From Williamsia muralis NBRC 105860 (GTDB lineage: Bacteria > Actinomycetota > Actinomycetes > Mycobacteriales > Mycobacteriaceae), in assembly GCF_001598915.1 (NCBI RefSeq), contig NZ_BDAP01000005.1, forward strand, positions 248,001 to 312,000: a DNA stretch of 64,000 bases, in the 5' to 3' direction. Of the stretch, positions 5,824-20,230 are shown in pieces. Under the pieces are notes generated by a model that was not told where the DNA came from, searched no databases, and was given only the letters and a program-made list of their open reading frames with translations. A program made the translations under genes and the position numbers. Position 1 is the first letter of the stretch, and each line of letters opens with the position of its first letter.

Positions 5824-8061
5824 TTGGTGAACGCCCCGTCCGACGTGTTGCTCGGCGTCCTGATCGAGCGTCGCTATCGGATCGATGCGCTGATCGCCCG
5901 CGGCGGGATGTCGAGTGTGTACCTGGGCATGGATCTGCGCCTCGATCGTCCGGTGGCGGTCAAGGTCATGGATCCGCGTTTCTCGGCCGACCCGCAATTC
6001 CTTGCCCGCCTGGAGTTCGAGGCCCGGTCGGTTGCCCGGCTGAAGGACCCCGGCCTGGTCGCGGTGTACGACCAGGGCGCGGACGGCGACTACGCATTCC
6101 TGGTGATGGAGCTCGTCCAGGGCGGCACCCTGCGCGAGTTGCTGCGTGAGCGCGGACCGATGCCACCCCACGCGGTCACCGCGGTCGCGGCGCCGGTCCT
6201 GGGAGCACTCGGTGCCGCGCATCGCGCCGGGCTGGTGCACCGCGACGTCAAACCCGAGAACGTCCTCATCTCCGACGACGGGGGGGTCAAGGTCGTCGAC
6301 TTCGGGTTGGTCCGGGCGATCGCTGCCGCCGGGATCACCTCCAACAGCGTGATCCTCGGAACAGCTGCCTACCTCTCCCCCGAACAGGTTGAAACCGCGT
6401 CGGCCGATGCTCGTTCCGACGTGTACTCAACCGGCATCCTGGTGTTCGAGATGCTCACCGGCCGAACACCTTTCACGGGCGACACCGCCCTGGGTCTGGC
6501 CTACCAGCGGTTGCACAACGACGTCCCGCCGCCGGGTTCGGTGATCCCGGGTGTGCCCCGCGAGTTCGATGAGTTCGTCCTCACCGCGACCGCACGCAAC
6601 CCTGCGGATCGCTATCGCGACGGACATCACATGCGCGAGGTACTCGACGAGATCGCGGACGATCTGCAACTGCCCGCGTTCACCGTCCCGGCGCCGACCC
6701 GCTCCGCCGAACGCGAGACCATGGTCGCGTTCCGCGACCGCCAGCAACACCGTCCCGGCGCCGCCGTCGACCCGGACCTCACCGACCCGTTGCCGGCCAG
6801 AGCCGCCGCGCAACCAGACGTCCGTAATCCGACTCGTGTGCAGACACTTCCACCGGACACCCGGCATCCCGAAGGGCACGGACCGCCTCAACCGCCGACG
6901 CCCCCACCCGCATACGCCCAGGGCCCGCCGCCCGGCTCGCCCATGTTGCTGTCGCATGCCACCGAGTTCGAGGAACGCCGGCGCAAGTCGCGCCGCAATG
7001 CGCTGATCTGGGTGCTCGTGGTGGTGCTGCTCGCCGCGACGCTCGGCGTCGCCGGATGGTGGCTCGGGTCGGGTCGCTTCACCACCGTTCCGGAATTGAA
7101 CGGGATGGACCGCGTGGCAGCGACCGAGGCGATCGAAGACGCCGGACTCGACGTGGTGGACAAGCCGACTTACGACAACGAGCTGCCCGTCGACCAGGTG
7201 ATGGCCGTCGAGCCCGCGCCCGGCACGCGCGTCAGCAGATTCTCGGACGTCGATCTGTCGTATTCGGTGGGACAGCCCAAAGTCCCAGACCTCTCCTCGG
7301 GTGATCCGCTCGCCGTGGTCGAGAAACGTCTGCGCGACCGCACTCTCACACCCGTGGTTGCACGCCAGCAGTACAGCGCCACCGCGCCGAAGGGCTCGGT
7401 GGTCTCACTCAGTCCCAGTTCGGGCACCACGGTTGCGGTCGGCAGTGAAGTGCAGATCATCACCAGCAGAGGCCCCGAGCCGATCTCGGTGCCCGATGTG
7501 ACGGGACGCGATCAGGACGACGCCACCGCACTGCTCAAGACGGCGAAACTCAAGGCCGGCACCGTCCGCAAGGAGTTCAGCCCGGATGTCGACGGCGGCA
7601 AGGTGATCGGTACCGACCCCGGCGCGGGCACACTCGCGGAGCCGGGCAGCACCGTCACACTCGTGGTGTCCGACGCGATCAAGGTGCCGGACCTGTCCGG
7701 CAAGACCCCCGACGAGGCGAGGCGGGTCCTGCAAGACGCGGGGCTGATCGCGCAAGACGGCGGCACGTCCACCGACGGTGACGCGAAGGCGGGCACCATC
7801 ACCACGGCCAGCCCCGCCTTCGGGGCGCGGGTGGACCCTCGTGACCCGGTCGTGCGCATCTTCGTATCCGACGGCGTCGATGTCCCGAACGTCACCGGCG
7901 ACACGGTCGGGACCGCGAAGAGCAAACTCGAGGCGGCCGGCCTCTCCGTGGACAGCCGGGGCCTGACGCGCTCGAGTGTGTCGCTCGTGGTCGGGCAGAA
8001 TCCGGGTGGCGGTACCCGGGTGAAGCAGGGCAGTACGGTTCAGATCACCTCGTTCCCCTGA
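5824..8061 (+). CDS. pknL: PknL-type serine/threonine kinase with five PASTA repeats
   Basis: This 745-residue membrane kinase has a catalytic domain at about 18-280: glycine loop ARGGMSSVY, Lys47 in AVKVMD, HRDVKPENV with catalytic Asp141, DFG at 159-161 and the APE-equivalent SPEQ. A Pro-rich juxtamembrane stretch (about 285-390) precedes one membrane segment (393-415). Five tandem PASTA units follow, beginning near VPEL, VPDLSS, VPDVTG, VPDLSG and VPNVTG. PASTA domains sense muropeptides or lipid II, so this should couple wall status to phosphorylation. The start is TTG 5824 or GTG 5827, behind GAAAGG. M. tuberculosis PknL, from memory, lacks PASTA repeats. Divergent from its likely substrate gene. 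Confidence 0.93.
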   Translation: MVNAPSDVLLGVLIERRYRIDALIARGGMSSVYLGMDLRLDRPVAVKVMDPRFSADPQFLARLEFEARSVARLKDPGLVAVYDQGADGDYAFLVMELVQGGTLRELLRERGPMPPHAVTAVAAPVLGALGAAHRAGLVHRDVKPENVLISDDGGVKVVDFGLVRAIAAAGITSNSVILGTAAYLSPEQVETASADARSDVYSTGILVFEMLTGRTPFTGDTALGLAYQRLHNDVPPPGSVIPGVPREFDEFVLTATARNPADRYRDGHHMREVLDEIADDLQLPAFTVPAPTRSAERETMVAFRDRQQHRPGAAVDPDLTDPLPARAAAQPDVRNPTRVQTLPPDTRHPEGHGPPQPPTPPPAYAQGPPPGSPMLLSHATEFEERRRKSRRNALIWVLVVVLLAATLGVAGWWLGSGRFTTVPELNGMDRVAATEAIEDAGLDVVDKPTYDNELPVDQVMAVEPAPGTRVSRFSDVDLSYSVGQPKVPDLSSGDPLAVVEKRLRDRTLTPVVARQQYSATAPKGSVVSLSPSSGTTVAVGSEVQIITSRGPEPISVPDVTGRDQDDATALLKTAKLKAGTVRKEFSPDVDGGKVIGTDPGAGTLAEPGSTVTLVVSDAIKVPDLSGKTPDEARRVLQDAGLIAQDGGTSTDGDAKAGTITTASPAFGARVDPRDPVVRIFVSDGVDVPNVTGDTVGTAKSKLEAAGLSVDSRGLTRSSVSLVVGQNPGGGTRVKQGSTVQITSFP

Positions 8062-8125
8062 GGTTGCCCGACCGGCGAACATGCCCGGTCTCCTTCGATT
8101 GGCCCGGTGTGATGTGATTGCCGGT

Positions 8126-8196
8126 GACACGGGGTGCCGAACACGTCGGCTGAGATCAGACCCGCTGTACCTGACCAGGTAATGCTGGCGGAGGGA
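8126..8196 (+). promoter_or_regulatory. TPP riboswitch (THI element)
   Basis: The conserved thiamine pyrophosphate aptamer blocks appear in order: CGGGGTGC at 8130-8137, GGCTGAGATCAGACCCG at 8148-8164, ACCTGA at 8169-8174, CCAG-GTAATG-CTGG hairpin at 8175-8188 and GCGGAGGGA at the 3' end. The GGAGGG at 8190-8195 is both the closing part of the aptamer and the only good ribosome site for the next gene. Ligand binding should therefore hide the ribosome site and switch off translation. Confidence 0.9.
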
Positions 8197-8204
8197 TGTC
8201 CATC

Positions 8205-9005
8205 GTGAATTCAGTTGCGCCCGAGAACGATTCCGACCACCGGCCACTGTCCGAGCAGATCGTCCTGGTGACCGGCGGGGCCCGTGGACTCGGCGCCGCC
8301 ATCACCCGGGCGTTCGCCCTCCAGGGCGCGCGTGTGGTCATCAACTTCCACCGCAGCCAGGCGGCCGCCGACGCGCTCGCCGACGAACTGGGGGCCGGCC
8401 GATGCCTGGCCGTGCAGGCAGATGTCACCGATCGGAACGCCGTGCTGGACATGTTCGCAACCGCCCGTGCGCATTTCGGAGCTCCCGTCACCACCGTGAT
8501 CAACAACGCGCTGATCGATTTCTCGTTCAACGGCGATGCACGGCCGGCAGTCGACGCCATCGAATGGCAGGCGTTCGACGCCCAACTACGGGGCAGTGTT
8601 GCAGGCGCCCTGCACACCACACAGGCAGCTCTGCCCGGGATGCGCGAGGCGGGATTCGGCCGGATCGTCACCATCGGGACCAACCTCGTCCAGAACCCCG
8701 TTGTGCCCTACCACGACTACACCGCGGCCAAGGCTGCACTGCTCGCGTTGACGCGGACTTTGTCGGCCGATCTCGGACCCGAGTCGATCACCGTCAACAT
8801 GGTGTCCGGTGGCCTGCTGCGAACCACCGACGCCAGCGCCGCCACCCCCGAGGCGGTGTTCGATCTCATCGCCCAGAGCACGCCTCTGCGACGGGTCACC
8901 ACTCCCGCCGAGTTCGCCGACGCGGTTCTGTTCTTCGCGTCACCGTGGGCACGGGCGGTGACCGGTCAGAACCTGGTGGTCGACGGTGGCCTCGTCAAGG
9001 ATTGA
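8205..9005 (+). CDS. Short-chain dehydrogenase/reductase under TPP control
   Basis: This 266-residue NAD(P)-dependent SDR resembles 3-oxoacyl-ACP reductases. The cofactor loop is TGGARGLGAA; NNAL replaces the usual NNAG; the active site reads YHDYTAAKAA with Tyr and Lys four apart; the C-terminal GQNLVVDGG is typical. ATG 8196 would sit directly on the ribosome site, whereas GTG 8205 has GGAGGG nine bases upstream, so 8205 is chosen. The TPP riboswitch implies a role in thiamine synthesis, salvage or a thiamine-linked reaction. From memory, comparative work on thiamine regulons named a TPP-regulated SDR oarX; this may be its counterpart. The substrate is unknown. Confidence 0.88.
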   Translation: MNSVAPENDSDHRPLSEQIVLVTGGARGLGAAITRAFALQGARVVINFHRSQAAADALADELGAGRCLAVQADVTDRNAVLDMFATARAHFGAPVTTVINNALIDFSFNGDARPAVDAIEWQAFDAQLRGSVAGALHTTQAALPGMREAGFGRIVTIGTNLVQNPVVPYHDYTAAKAALLALTRTLSADLGPESITVNMVSGGLLRTTDASAATPEAVFDLIAQSTPLRRVTTPAEFADAVLFFASPWARAVTGQNLVVDGGLVKD

Positions 9006-9030
9006 GGCACCGCCCCCTCCCGTCGAGCGG

Positions 9031-10443
<1,413 letters not shown>

Positions 10444-18051: not shown

Positions 18052-19095
18052 TCAGTATCGACGGGCCGAGTTGTACGGGCCGGCTCCGTCGATCGGAGCG
18101 ACCTTGACCGGGACACCGAATGTCGAGGCGTGCACCACGTAGCCGTTACCGATGTACATGCCCACGTGGGTGGCGTCGGGGTAGTAGATGATCAGATCGC
18201 CGGGCCGCAGAGCATCTCGCTCCACCGGGGTGCCGCCCGCCAGTTGCGCCTGGCTGGACCGCGGCAGCGTCTTCCCTGCTTGTTTGTATGCCCACACCAT
18301 CAGCCCGGAGCAATCGAATTGATCCGGCCCGGTGGCGCCCCACACGTAGGGATCGCCGATCCGGGTGAGCGCAGCACGAACAGCGATGACCTCGGGGGCC
18401 GTCCCGGCGGGCAACATCGAGGCGTCGAACTCGATCTTGGGCCCGGCCAGTGCAGCGAGCTGCTTGCCGGTCAACGACTCGTACATCGCCCTGATCTCGG
18501 TGGCCTTGAAGATTCGTTCACTCTGCCTGGCCTGCAGGTCTGCGCTGGTCTTCTCGGCGACGGCCACTGCCTGCTCGGCCTTCGTCTTCGCGTCCTGCGC
18601 CACCTTTTGCGCTTCCAGCGCTTTGTCGTTGGCGACCTTGAACGTCTTCACGTCGGCAACGGTCTGACGCGAGATCATCTCGAGTCCGGACATCTGGTCG
18701 AGCAACGATTGCGGCGAGTCACTGACGAGGACGGCGTAGAGACGATTGACCCGCGCGCCCCGGTAACTGGCGTTGACCAGTGCATCAACTGCGCCCTGCA
18801 GGCTTTCGGCCTGCTTCTCCTGCTCGGCAAGGGTGCGCTCGGCCGCCGAAGCGGCCTCGTTCGCCGCCGTGACAGCGCCGCGCTGGTTGTTCAGTTCGAT
18901 CGTGGTGTTGTGAATGGCCTCGGTGGCCTGCTCGGCCTCGCGGCCCAGCTGCGTGTATTCGGTGAGCATGTCATCCGGGCTCTGCGGTCCCGGTTCGGCA
19001 CCGGCCGGCGCACCTGCGCCCAGTGCAACCGCCAACGCCAACACCACAGCCGCGATCACGGTCTGCATGACGGCGGCATAACGCTTCCGCACCAC
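18052..19095 (-). CDS. Secreted NlpC/P60 peptidoglycan endopeptidase with coiled coil (Rv2190c-like)
   Basis: The protein has a signal peptide (RKRYAAVMQTVIAAVVLALA, cut near AGAEPG). A long coiled coil follows from about 45 to 215 (EAEQATEAIHNTTIELNNQ onward). The C-terminal NlpC/P60 domain carries FDCSGLMVWAYKQAG with the nucleophile Cys, THVGMYIGNG with the His, and VVHASTFG. The layout resembles RipA-type hydrolases, whose coiled coil controls access to the active site that cuts stem peptides. GTG 19095 has AGGAG ten bases upstream; the frame extends to GTG 19116. Corresponds to Rv2190c. Confidence 0.88.
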   Translation of the reverse strand: MVRKRYAAVMQTVIAAVVLALAVALGAGAPAGAEPGPQSPDDMLTEYTQLGREAEQATEAIHNTTIELNNQRGAVTAANEAASAAERTLAEQEKQAESLQGAVDALVNASYRGARVNRLYAVLVSDSPQSLLDQMSGLEMISRQTVADVKTFKVANDKALEAQKVAQDAKTKAEQAVAVAEKTSADLQARQSERIFKATEIRAMYESLTGKQLAALAGPKIEFDASMLPAGTAPEVIAVRAALTRIGDPYVWGATGPDQFDCSGLMVWAYKQAGKTLPRSSQAQLAGGTPVERDALRPGDLIIYYPDATHVGMYIGNGYVVHASTFGVPVKVAPIDGAGPYNSARRY

Positions 19096-19291
19096 GACGA
19101 TGAAACTCCTCAACACTTCACGCGGGCCAACCCGAGCCCTTCTACCTCTGTGTGTACCGAACAGATCAGCTGCCCACTCGGTACGTCTTGTTCGACCGAT
19201 CCCGCTGCACTGACCAACCCGGCCAGGCTACACAGGCCTTCGCCCCACCGAGCGCGGACGGCCAGACTGTCTGCAACCGGGTGTTCGGAAG

Positions 19292-19351: not shown

Positions 19352-19927
19352 TCAGTAGCGACGGATGTCGACGATCGACTGGTCGTTGAGACCCATCCGA
19401 CCGACGGGCACGCCCTCGGTCGAGGAGTGGACGACCTGGCCGCCACCGACGTAGATGCCCGCGTGGCCGCCACCGTTGTAGATCACGACGTCGCCGGGCT
19501 GGATGTTCGCAGCGTCGACGTGGGTGCCACCGCCGAGCTGGCCGTAGCTGTCCCGGGGAATGGTCTGACCGGCCTGCTGGTGCGACCAGTAGACGAGACC
19601 TGAGCAGTCGAATGCGCTGGGGCCGGCTGCGCCGTAGACATACGGCGAACCGATCTTGCTCACTGCGGCATCAGCGGCGATCTGGCCTGCGGGCCGGACC
19701 GGCTGCGCTGCCTGCGGCAGGATGTTGGGGGATTTGAACTCGTTGGGGATCTGGTTTTCGGCCAGGCCCGGGATCTCGAAGGTTCCGACACCGGGAACGG
19801 TGATCGGAGCAGCCATGGCCGGCGCTGCGGCCATTCCCATGGTGCCGAGAGTGATCGATCCGGCGATCAGTGCGCCCCGGGCGCTCTTGATGCCCCGGTT
19901 CGGCTGTTGCAAACGATGTTTCGCCAC
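19352..19927 (-). CDS. Small secreted NlpC/P60 endopeptidase
   Basis: A 191-residue protein with a signal peptide (KSARGALIAGSITLGTMGM, cleavage near AMAAPI) and a short linker. The compact NlpC/P60 domain contains SKIGSPYVYGAAGPSAFDCSGL (nucleophile Cys), GGGHAGIYVGGG (His) and QVVHSSTEG. It lacks the coiled-coil domain of its neighbour, so resembles RipB/RipD-type enzymes. It sits behind a c-di-AMP riboswitch, as cell-wall hydrolase genes often do in actinobacteria. It should cut peptidoglycan stem peptides outside the cell. The start ATG at 19927 is firm. Confidence 0.9.
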   Translation of the reverse strand: MAKHRLQQPNRGIKSARGALIAGSITLGTMGMAAAPAMAAPITVPGVGTFEIPGLAENQIPNEFKSPNILPQAAQPVRPAGQIAADAAVSKIGSPYVYGAAGPSAFDCSGLVYWSHQQAGQTIPRDSYGQLGGGTHVDAANIQPGDVVIYNGGGHAGIYVGGGQVVHSSTEGVPVGRMGLNDQSIVDIRRY

Positions 19928-19949
19928 GAAGCGATGTCTCCTGTTTCTT

Positions 19950-20112
19950 CCCTATCCGCCTACCGGGTTAGCTGTCGGATTCGGGCCGGAAGATGGCCCT
20001 ACCCGGTGAACCCAGAAGTCTGAAGACCTCAGGGTTCAGTGGGATTCACCCCGGATGTGAACTCGCATTCGCATCAGTGGTTCCCCGGTTCACCAGGACG
20101 GTGATTGAGCGG
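19950..20112 (-). promoter_or_regulatory. Cyclic di-AMP riboswitch (ydaO/yuaA type)
   Basis: Read on the minus strand, the leader holds the conserved ydaO blocks in order: CCGCTCAATCACCG, GGTGAACCGGGGAACCA, GGGGTGAATCCC, GGGTAGGGCC, then CCCGAATCCGACAGCTAACC ending in GGTAGGCGG. The gene starts about 25 bases later. A TAGGGT hexamer at 20120-20115 is a plausible -10 element with transcription starting at the first block. In Streptomyces such switches turn off resuscitation or hydrolase genes at high c-di-AMP. Confidence 0.88.
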
Positions 20113-20230
20113 CGACCCTACGATCCGCTCCGGTTGGAGTGGACGCTTTCGCAAGGTCTCAGAAAGGTTACGAAACCGTGATGGTCCGTGTCCACTAGGG
20201 GACCGACAGGAGACCGACCGGCGTGTCGGG

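Follow-up and report, generated by a model that had tools for sequence, protein, structure and literature searches.

TPP-repressed genes normally supply TPP, and a THI-element-regulated gene for a 3-oxoacyl-ACP-reductase-like protein, OarX, was reportedly described by Rodionov et al. 2002. A layout in which the base stem of the riboswitch overlaps the start site of the controlled gene has been described for Actinobacteria (PMC1262725). C-S bond cleavage by CmoJ, which is homologous to DszA and YxeK, yields an aldehyde, namely benzaldehyde from an S-benzyl substrate (PMC10863075), and an F-H/Y motif has been reported for HMP/thiamin symporters (PMC11452348). Among the literature matches listed, none used oarX as the name of a thiamine-regulated SDR, and no title or abstract beginning described a TPP-controlled SDR with a monooxygenase of the CmoJ kind. 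The terms monooxygenase, short-chain and oar were absent from the main text of PMC3766115, and the terms monooxygenase and dehydrogenase from that of PMC2211319.

A cmscan search of the whole window (the 64-kb stretch of Williamsia muralis NBRC 105860 DNA that was analyzed here) returned two matches above the gathering score, a TPP riboswitch at 8120-8213 (+) and a c-di-AMP riboswitch at 19942-20121 (-). The TPP match (RF00059, 66.3 bits against a gathering score of 54.3, E 8.4e-11) spans model positions 1-105, which is the whole model. The TPP riboswitch recognized in the initial annotation was thereby confirmed, and its identity, taken by itself, is close to certain. The Rfam alignment was mapped onto coordinates (Table 1), with the helices labeled P1, P2 and P4 after the numbering for TPP aptamers. 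P1 joins G8126-A8129 with U8197-C8200 and the helix called P4 here joins C8170-U8172 with A8192-G8194, while further pairings are C8130-G8133 with C8161-G8164, G8136-A8140 with U8146-C8150, and C8175-G8178 with C8185-U8186-G8188.

Table 1. Features of the TPP riboswitch and the SDR gene (positions in the 64-kb window)
Feature	Position	Strand	Remark
TPP riboswitch aptamer	8120..8213, core about 8125-8201	+	RF00059 match
P1 5' arm	8126..8129	+	Rfam alignment mapped onto coordinates
P4 CCU, partner of AGG 8192-8194 in the ribosome site	8170..8172	+	Rfam alignment
GGAGGG ribosome site inside the aptamer	8190..8195	+	part in P4 helix, then P1
P1 3' arm	8197..8200	+	Rfam alignment mapped onto coordinates
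SDR gene, NCBIfam NF006393	8205..9005	+	likely start GTG 8205; ATG 8196 in the same frame

A leader model, R1, was built from 24 leaders, comprising that of the window and those of 23 related loci, which it therefore matches by construction. Across 24 leaders the 20 mapped pairs of the aptamer form in 97.9% of cells, and both sides have changed in 6 of the 20. The covariation score exceeded that of 500 of 500 shuffles; on two of the five covariation measures shuffles equaled the leaders, in 47 of 500 for the number of double-changed pairs and in 160 of 500 for pair types. The three P4 pairs that hold AGG 8192-8194 are invariant in the 24 leaders, and thus covariation neither supports nor contradicts that pairing. 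A promoter and terminator scan of 7950-9100, of a kind that is uninformative for Actinomycetota, found none.

The GGAGGG had been proposed as the sole usable ribosome site for GTG 8205, within a compact layout that has no separate expression platform, and both proposals held up. AGG 8192-8194 lies in P4 and AUGUCC in P1, with GTG 8205 following 9 nt after GGAGGG. Duplex energies with the 16S tail were calculated for the 20-nt stretch preceding every in-frame start codon as far as 8400. The value was -11.6 for GTG 8205, compared with -3.5 and -3.1 for the next in-frame GTGs at 8268 and 8334. ATG 8196 reached -10.0 with the same GGAGGG at zero spacing, and it was rejected as the SDR start on the grounds of that spacing and of its position within the aptamer's own GGGATGTC, of which it is also a part in leaders where the gene starts most plausibly 50-110 nt downstream. 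Since ATG 8196 belongs to the aptamer and an ATG stands exactly at the place of GTG 8205 in four Williamsia relatives (L005, L007, L008 and L043), GTG 8205 is the likely start of the SDR gene.

Start classes and free-base letters were read by eye for the SDR-adjacent leaders of the related loci, 44 in number without L024 (leader before thiM), with L053 (broken frame) left out, and for that of the window. In the compact class, formed by the window and 14 loci, the SDR begins 3-5 nt behind GGGATGTC; in the extended class of 29 loci the most plausible start lies about 50-110 nt behind it, and about half of these loci also have a nearer in-frame start codon. GGAGG is completed by a free base that is G in 11 of the 15 leaders of the compact class versus 1 of 29 extended leaders, many of these rows being close relatives.

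Direct sequestration of the ribosome site by the aptamer is a prediction supported by the P4/P1 pairing of the GGAGGG region together with the ATG found at the position of GTG 8205 in the four relatives. In ligand-free folds of 8100-8240, 8062-8240 and 8115-8215, forcing the aptamer costs 2.8, 5.1 and 1.4 kcal/mol, respectively; P1, P2 and P4 are not formed, and the start codon is frequently paired with another part of the RNA. The unpaired probability, which varies with the stretch folded, is 0.36-0.80 at 8192-8194 and 0.04-0.18 at 8190-8191, leaving the core partly open. The modeled folds agree with a ligand-dependent structure and are no proof of a switch; they were set aside for that purpose as they offered no clean on-state. 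The riboswitch and its direct-overlap layout are both of known kinds and ordinary for the phylum, as the whole RF00059 model and the overlap of base stem and start described for Actinobacteria are found here too, with no structural difference.

Relatives of the SDR were examined at the best 80 loci of a pattern scan (69-99% identity over the best segment), and fractions of these loci are no census. R1 identified a same-strand TPP leader at 45 of them, of which 22 are independent matches among the other 57 loci and the remaining 23 are those from which the model was built. The leader stands directly before the SDR at 44 of the 45 loci and at the head of an operon in L024. No leader was found with R1 at the other 35 of the best 80 loci. 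The model also gave 15 opposite-strand TPP matches, and L061 has a match of that orientation only. RF00059, applied to 38 of the best 80 loci, gave 24 of them a same-strand leader that exceeds the gathering score, and the leader of the SDR in L051 was seen by R1 alone (60.3 bits). On the SDR tree (81 rows) the leader label changes 6 times, compared with a mean of 26.5 after shuffling. Leaderless rows are mainly Lysobacteraceae and Burkholderiales, and also include Gandjariella, a Sandaracinaceae bacterium and Azoarcus; their SDR genes adjoin unrelated genes, such as those for carbamoyl-phosphate synthase and FeoB. Among the best 80 loci the riboswitch-SDR pair spans Actinomycetota and Pseudomonadota, with representatives in Beta- and Gammaproteobacteria and one Rhizobium, so that the actinobacterial scope first given to it was too narrow.

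Within the window's family, 34 of 121 genomes, distributed over 11 of the 31 genera, have the SDR (E <= 1e-75, 64-100% identity). When the two lists were compared by eye, an R1 match was adjacent to it in 30 of the 34 genomes, the outcome expected if SDR orthologues keep the leader, which had been set as a check in the initial annotation. The four exceptions are G016, with a weak match (43.5 bits), G096, which begins at a contig end, and two genomes without a match, G112 and G019. One of the 30, G107, does not reach the Rfam threshold (37 bits). Upstream of the SDR with its weak TPP leader, that genome has two tRNA clusters (L130 2657-3312, -), each of three genes, that look identical. Another genome, titled Kitasatospora arboriphila (L053/G005), has the Williamsia gene order at the SDR, and the genome survey assigned it to the genus of the window; it is probably misnamed, and no single frame holds its SDR intact.

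An FMN-dependent monooxygenase of the NtaA/DmoA family lies directly downstream of the SDR in 31 of the best 80 loci (64-100% identity to that of L016), namely in 29 of 45 with a leader versus 2 of the 35 for which none was found (Fisher p 3e-8, uncorrected for relatedness). The description of the SDR as a lone gene is correct for Williamsia and does not extend to those 29 leader-bearing loci, with their second gene directly behind it. The four monooxygenases scanned match TIGR03860 at 510-550 bits (cut-off 279.7), and the closest PDB relatives are YtnJ (331 bits), which we take to be CmoJ, an NTA-monooxygenase-like protein (309 bits) and DszA (287 bits). TIGR03860 membership is thus shared with CmoJ and the NtaA/DmoA family, while the predicted TPP control and the adjacent SDR set the partner apart from them. 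In the family survey the monooxygenase was beside the SDR in 14 of 34 SDR genomes; in G002 the contig ends 162 bases on. No orthologous monooxygenase was found in the Williamsia genome itself, the best match being 49% identical. This protein was rejected as a partner because it has other neighbors and none of the genome's three TPP matches lies there. As read from the open reading frames, its gene stands in a row with ABC transporter-like genes, an MFS-like gene and another SDR (C4, L104 3125-9378).

A sodium/solute symporter of a putative ThiV type was found within about 2.2 kb in 13 of the best 80 loci, and in all 13 an opposite-strand TPP match precedes it; the two other opposite-strand matches lie close to the end of a contig (L035 and L051). 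The linked symporter resembles ThiV, the HMP sodium symporter, in its sodium/solute type, in having a TPP match of its own and in carrying the F-H/Y motif. It differs in that the two symporters scanned (99.7 and 93.4 bits) fall under the general symporter cut-off of 184. In L024 (Arthrobacter sp. H14) a TPP leader, thiM, thiE, thiD, the SDR and the monooxygenase stand in one row. The monooxygenase partner, the TPP-linked symporter and this thi operon with an SDR are new here. The monooxygenase of L024 (4807-6035) is split into two frames, by either a real break or a sequencing error.

The SDR has SDR Pfam domains and scores 438.5 bits against NF006393 (cut-off 292), for which the name 3-oxoacyl-ACP reductase (PRK08642) is an annotation. 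Thr159, Tyr172 and Lys176 of the 266-aa protein are invariant in 57 aligned sequences, with Thr159 at what we take, from other SDRs, to be the usual position of the catalytic Ser. Outside the closest strains, identity to the window SDR is 69-82% at the best loci; among these loci, the nearest full-length record with a name, from Williamsia muralis, encodes an SDR 98% identical to it. The protein is a candidate for the OarX that Rodionov et al. reportedly described in 2002, with whose 3-oxoacyl-ACP-reductase-like character the NCBIfam name agrees. The kinase and aroG genes given as neighbors in the initial annotation are correct as location. They were rejected as functional neighbors and do not provide context, since among the best 80 loci they are confined to those of the Williamsia type.

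The 5.54-Mb Williamsia genome has three TPP matches, including one before thiO-thiS-thiG (56.7 bits; genes read from the open reading frames) and one at the start of thiC (51.3 bits, below the gathering score); the third is that of the SDR. ThiC and ThiG are present by profile, and thiO, thiS, thiE and thiD are readings of open reading frames. The profile search did not find TenA in this genome and gave only a below-cut-off match for ThiM (20.2 bits), and a search for ThiV, run without a positive control, had no match. With ThiM in this state, no kinase is evident for a thiazole alcohol that the SDR might produce, whereas HMP would have ThiD. Among the family genomes, an intact thiC is missing from 14 of 34 with the SDR versus 13 of 87 others (raw p 0.003), and this link was discarded as proof that the SDR is tied to thiC loss because it disappeared on control for genus (p 0.19 within genera, p 0.26 by genus). 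In 50 genomes of the best 80 loci, a thiC above cut-off is missing from 11 of 33 with a leader versus 0 of 17 without, a comparison that is likewise confounded and in which completeness is not told.

We propose that the TPP-bound aptamer would cover the SDR ribosome site and act as a translational off-switch, and that the SDR would be an accessory thiamine-salvage enzyme made at low TPP. The enzyme would reduce pyrimidine carboxaldehyde (4-amino-5-formyl-2-methylpyrimidine) to HMP, for subsequent use by ThiD and ThiE. In relatives, the NtaA/DmoA/CmoJ-type FMN monooxygenase of the same operon would free the aldehyde from pyrimidine-CH2-S-R or -N-R compounds, such as a thiaminase I exchange product, and the ThiV-type symporter would bring in the pyrimidine. 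The partner genes suggest salvage, and the symporter, together with the absence of a ThiM above cut-off, suggests the pyrimidine half. The step from aldehyde to HMP is suggested by the aldehyde chemistry of CmoJ, by aldehyde reduction, for which an SDR is a natural enzyme, and by a weak match to the SDR-type pyridoxal 4-dehydrogenase (NF047923, 133.2 bits, cut-off 325). The window SDR is related to that enzyme without being a member of its family; that enzyme acts on a ring comparable to that of HMP, and pyridoxine and HMP are chemically similar. The mechanism as a whole, in which we infer the TPP response, the direction of the reaction and the substrate, is put forward tentatively, at slightly under an even chance. 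In Williamsia, with no orthologous monooxygenase and no ThiV match, the SDR would have to work by itself or with other partners. A complete TPP-regulated recovery route for the pyrimidine, with ThiV-type uptake, CmoJ-like cleavage and the SDR as HMP-aldehyde reductase, of which Williamsia would have kept only the reductase, is rather doubtful. The 35 leaderless relatives among the best 80 and the missing partners in Williamsia count against the main reading. The broader suggestion that the locus points to an unassigned step in thiamine metabolism is likely right, in view of leaders in two phyla and of the monooxygenase and symporter partners. The regulated set, in which the SDR stands with a flavin monooxygenase of a C-S/C-N-cleaving type and with what is likely an importer of a precursor, reveals a testable gap in B1 salvage, and could bear on HMP supply from degraded or conjugated thiamine in bacteria without thiC.

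Several other activities of the SDR were weighed against the reduction of the pyrimidine aldehyde. With the same switch, it could reduce an oxidized hydroxyethyl side chain (an aldehyde) of the thiazole half, or of thiamine, to the alcohol, which would suit both the thiM of the L024 operon and the natural aptitude of SDRs for aldehydes. We consider this unlikely, as the Williamsia genome has no ThiM above cut-off, a strong thiG match is kept in 13 of the 14 genomes that carry the SDR but no intact thiC, and the linked symporter resembles an HMP transporter, although these points leave room for an aldehyde of intact thiamine. Alternatively, the SDR and monooxygenase may detoxify a thiamine analogue or conjugate and supply no precursor. 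TPP repression fits supply better than defense, the symporter under the same predicted control suggests deliberate uptake, and in L024 the enzyme pair accompanies thiMED; such pairs are nevertheless common in catabolism, and the patchy spread over the family's genomes and genera and the span of two phyla are in keeping with detoxification, which we judge to be very improbable.

The remaining candidate is a general 3-oxoacyl-ACP reductase or other housekeeping enzyme that was captured by TPP control, to which we assign a low probability. Its NCBIfam name and the unrelated genes beside the leaderless relatives would accord with such a role, but the SDR scores far under the cut-offs of FabG-type models (160.5 against 296 and 129.8 against 297.75 bits) and its linkage to thiamine-related partners is repeated.

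The c-di-AMP riboswitch elsewhere in the window (RF00379, 78.2 bits, gathering score 38) is followed by an open reading frame at 19352-19927 (-) that, judged from its sequence, reads like a secreted NlpC/P60-type protein, and next after it is a second NlpC/P60-like open reading frame at 18052-19116 (-).
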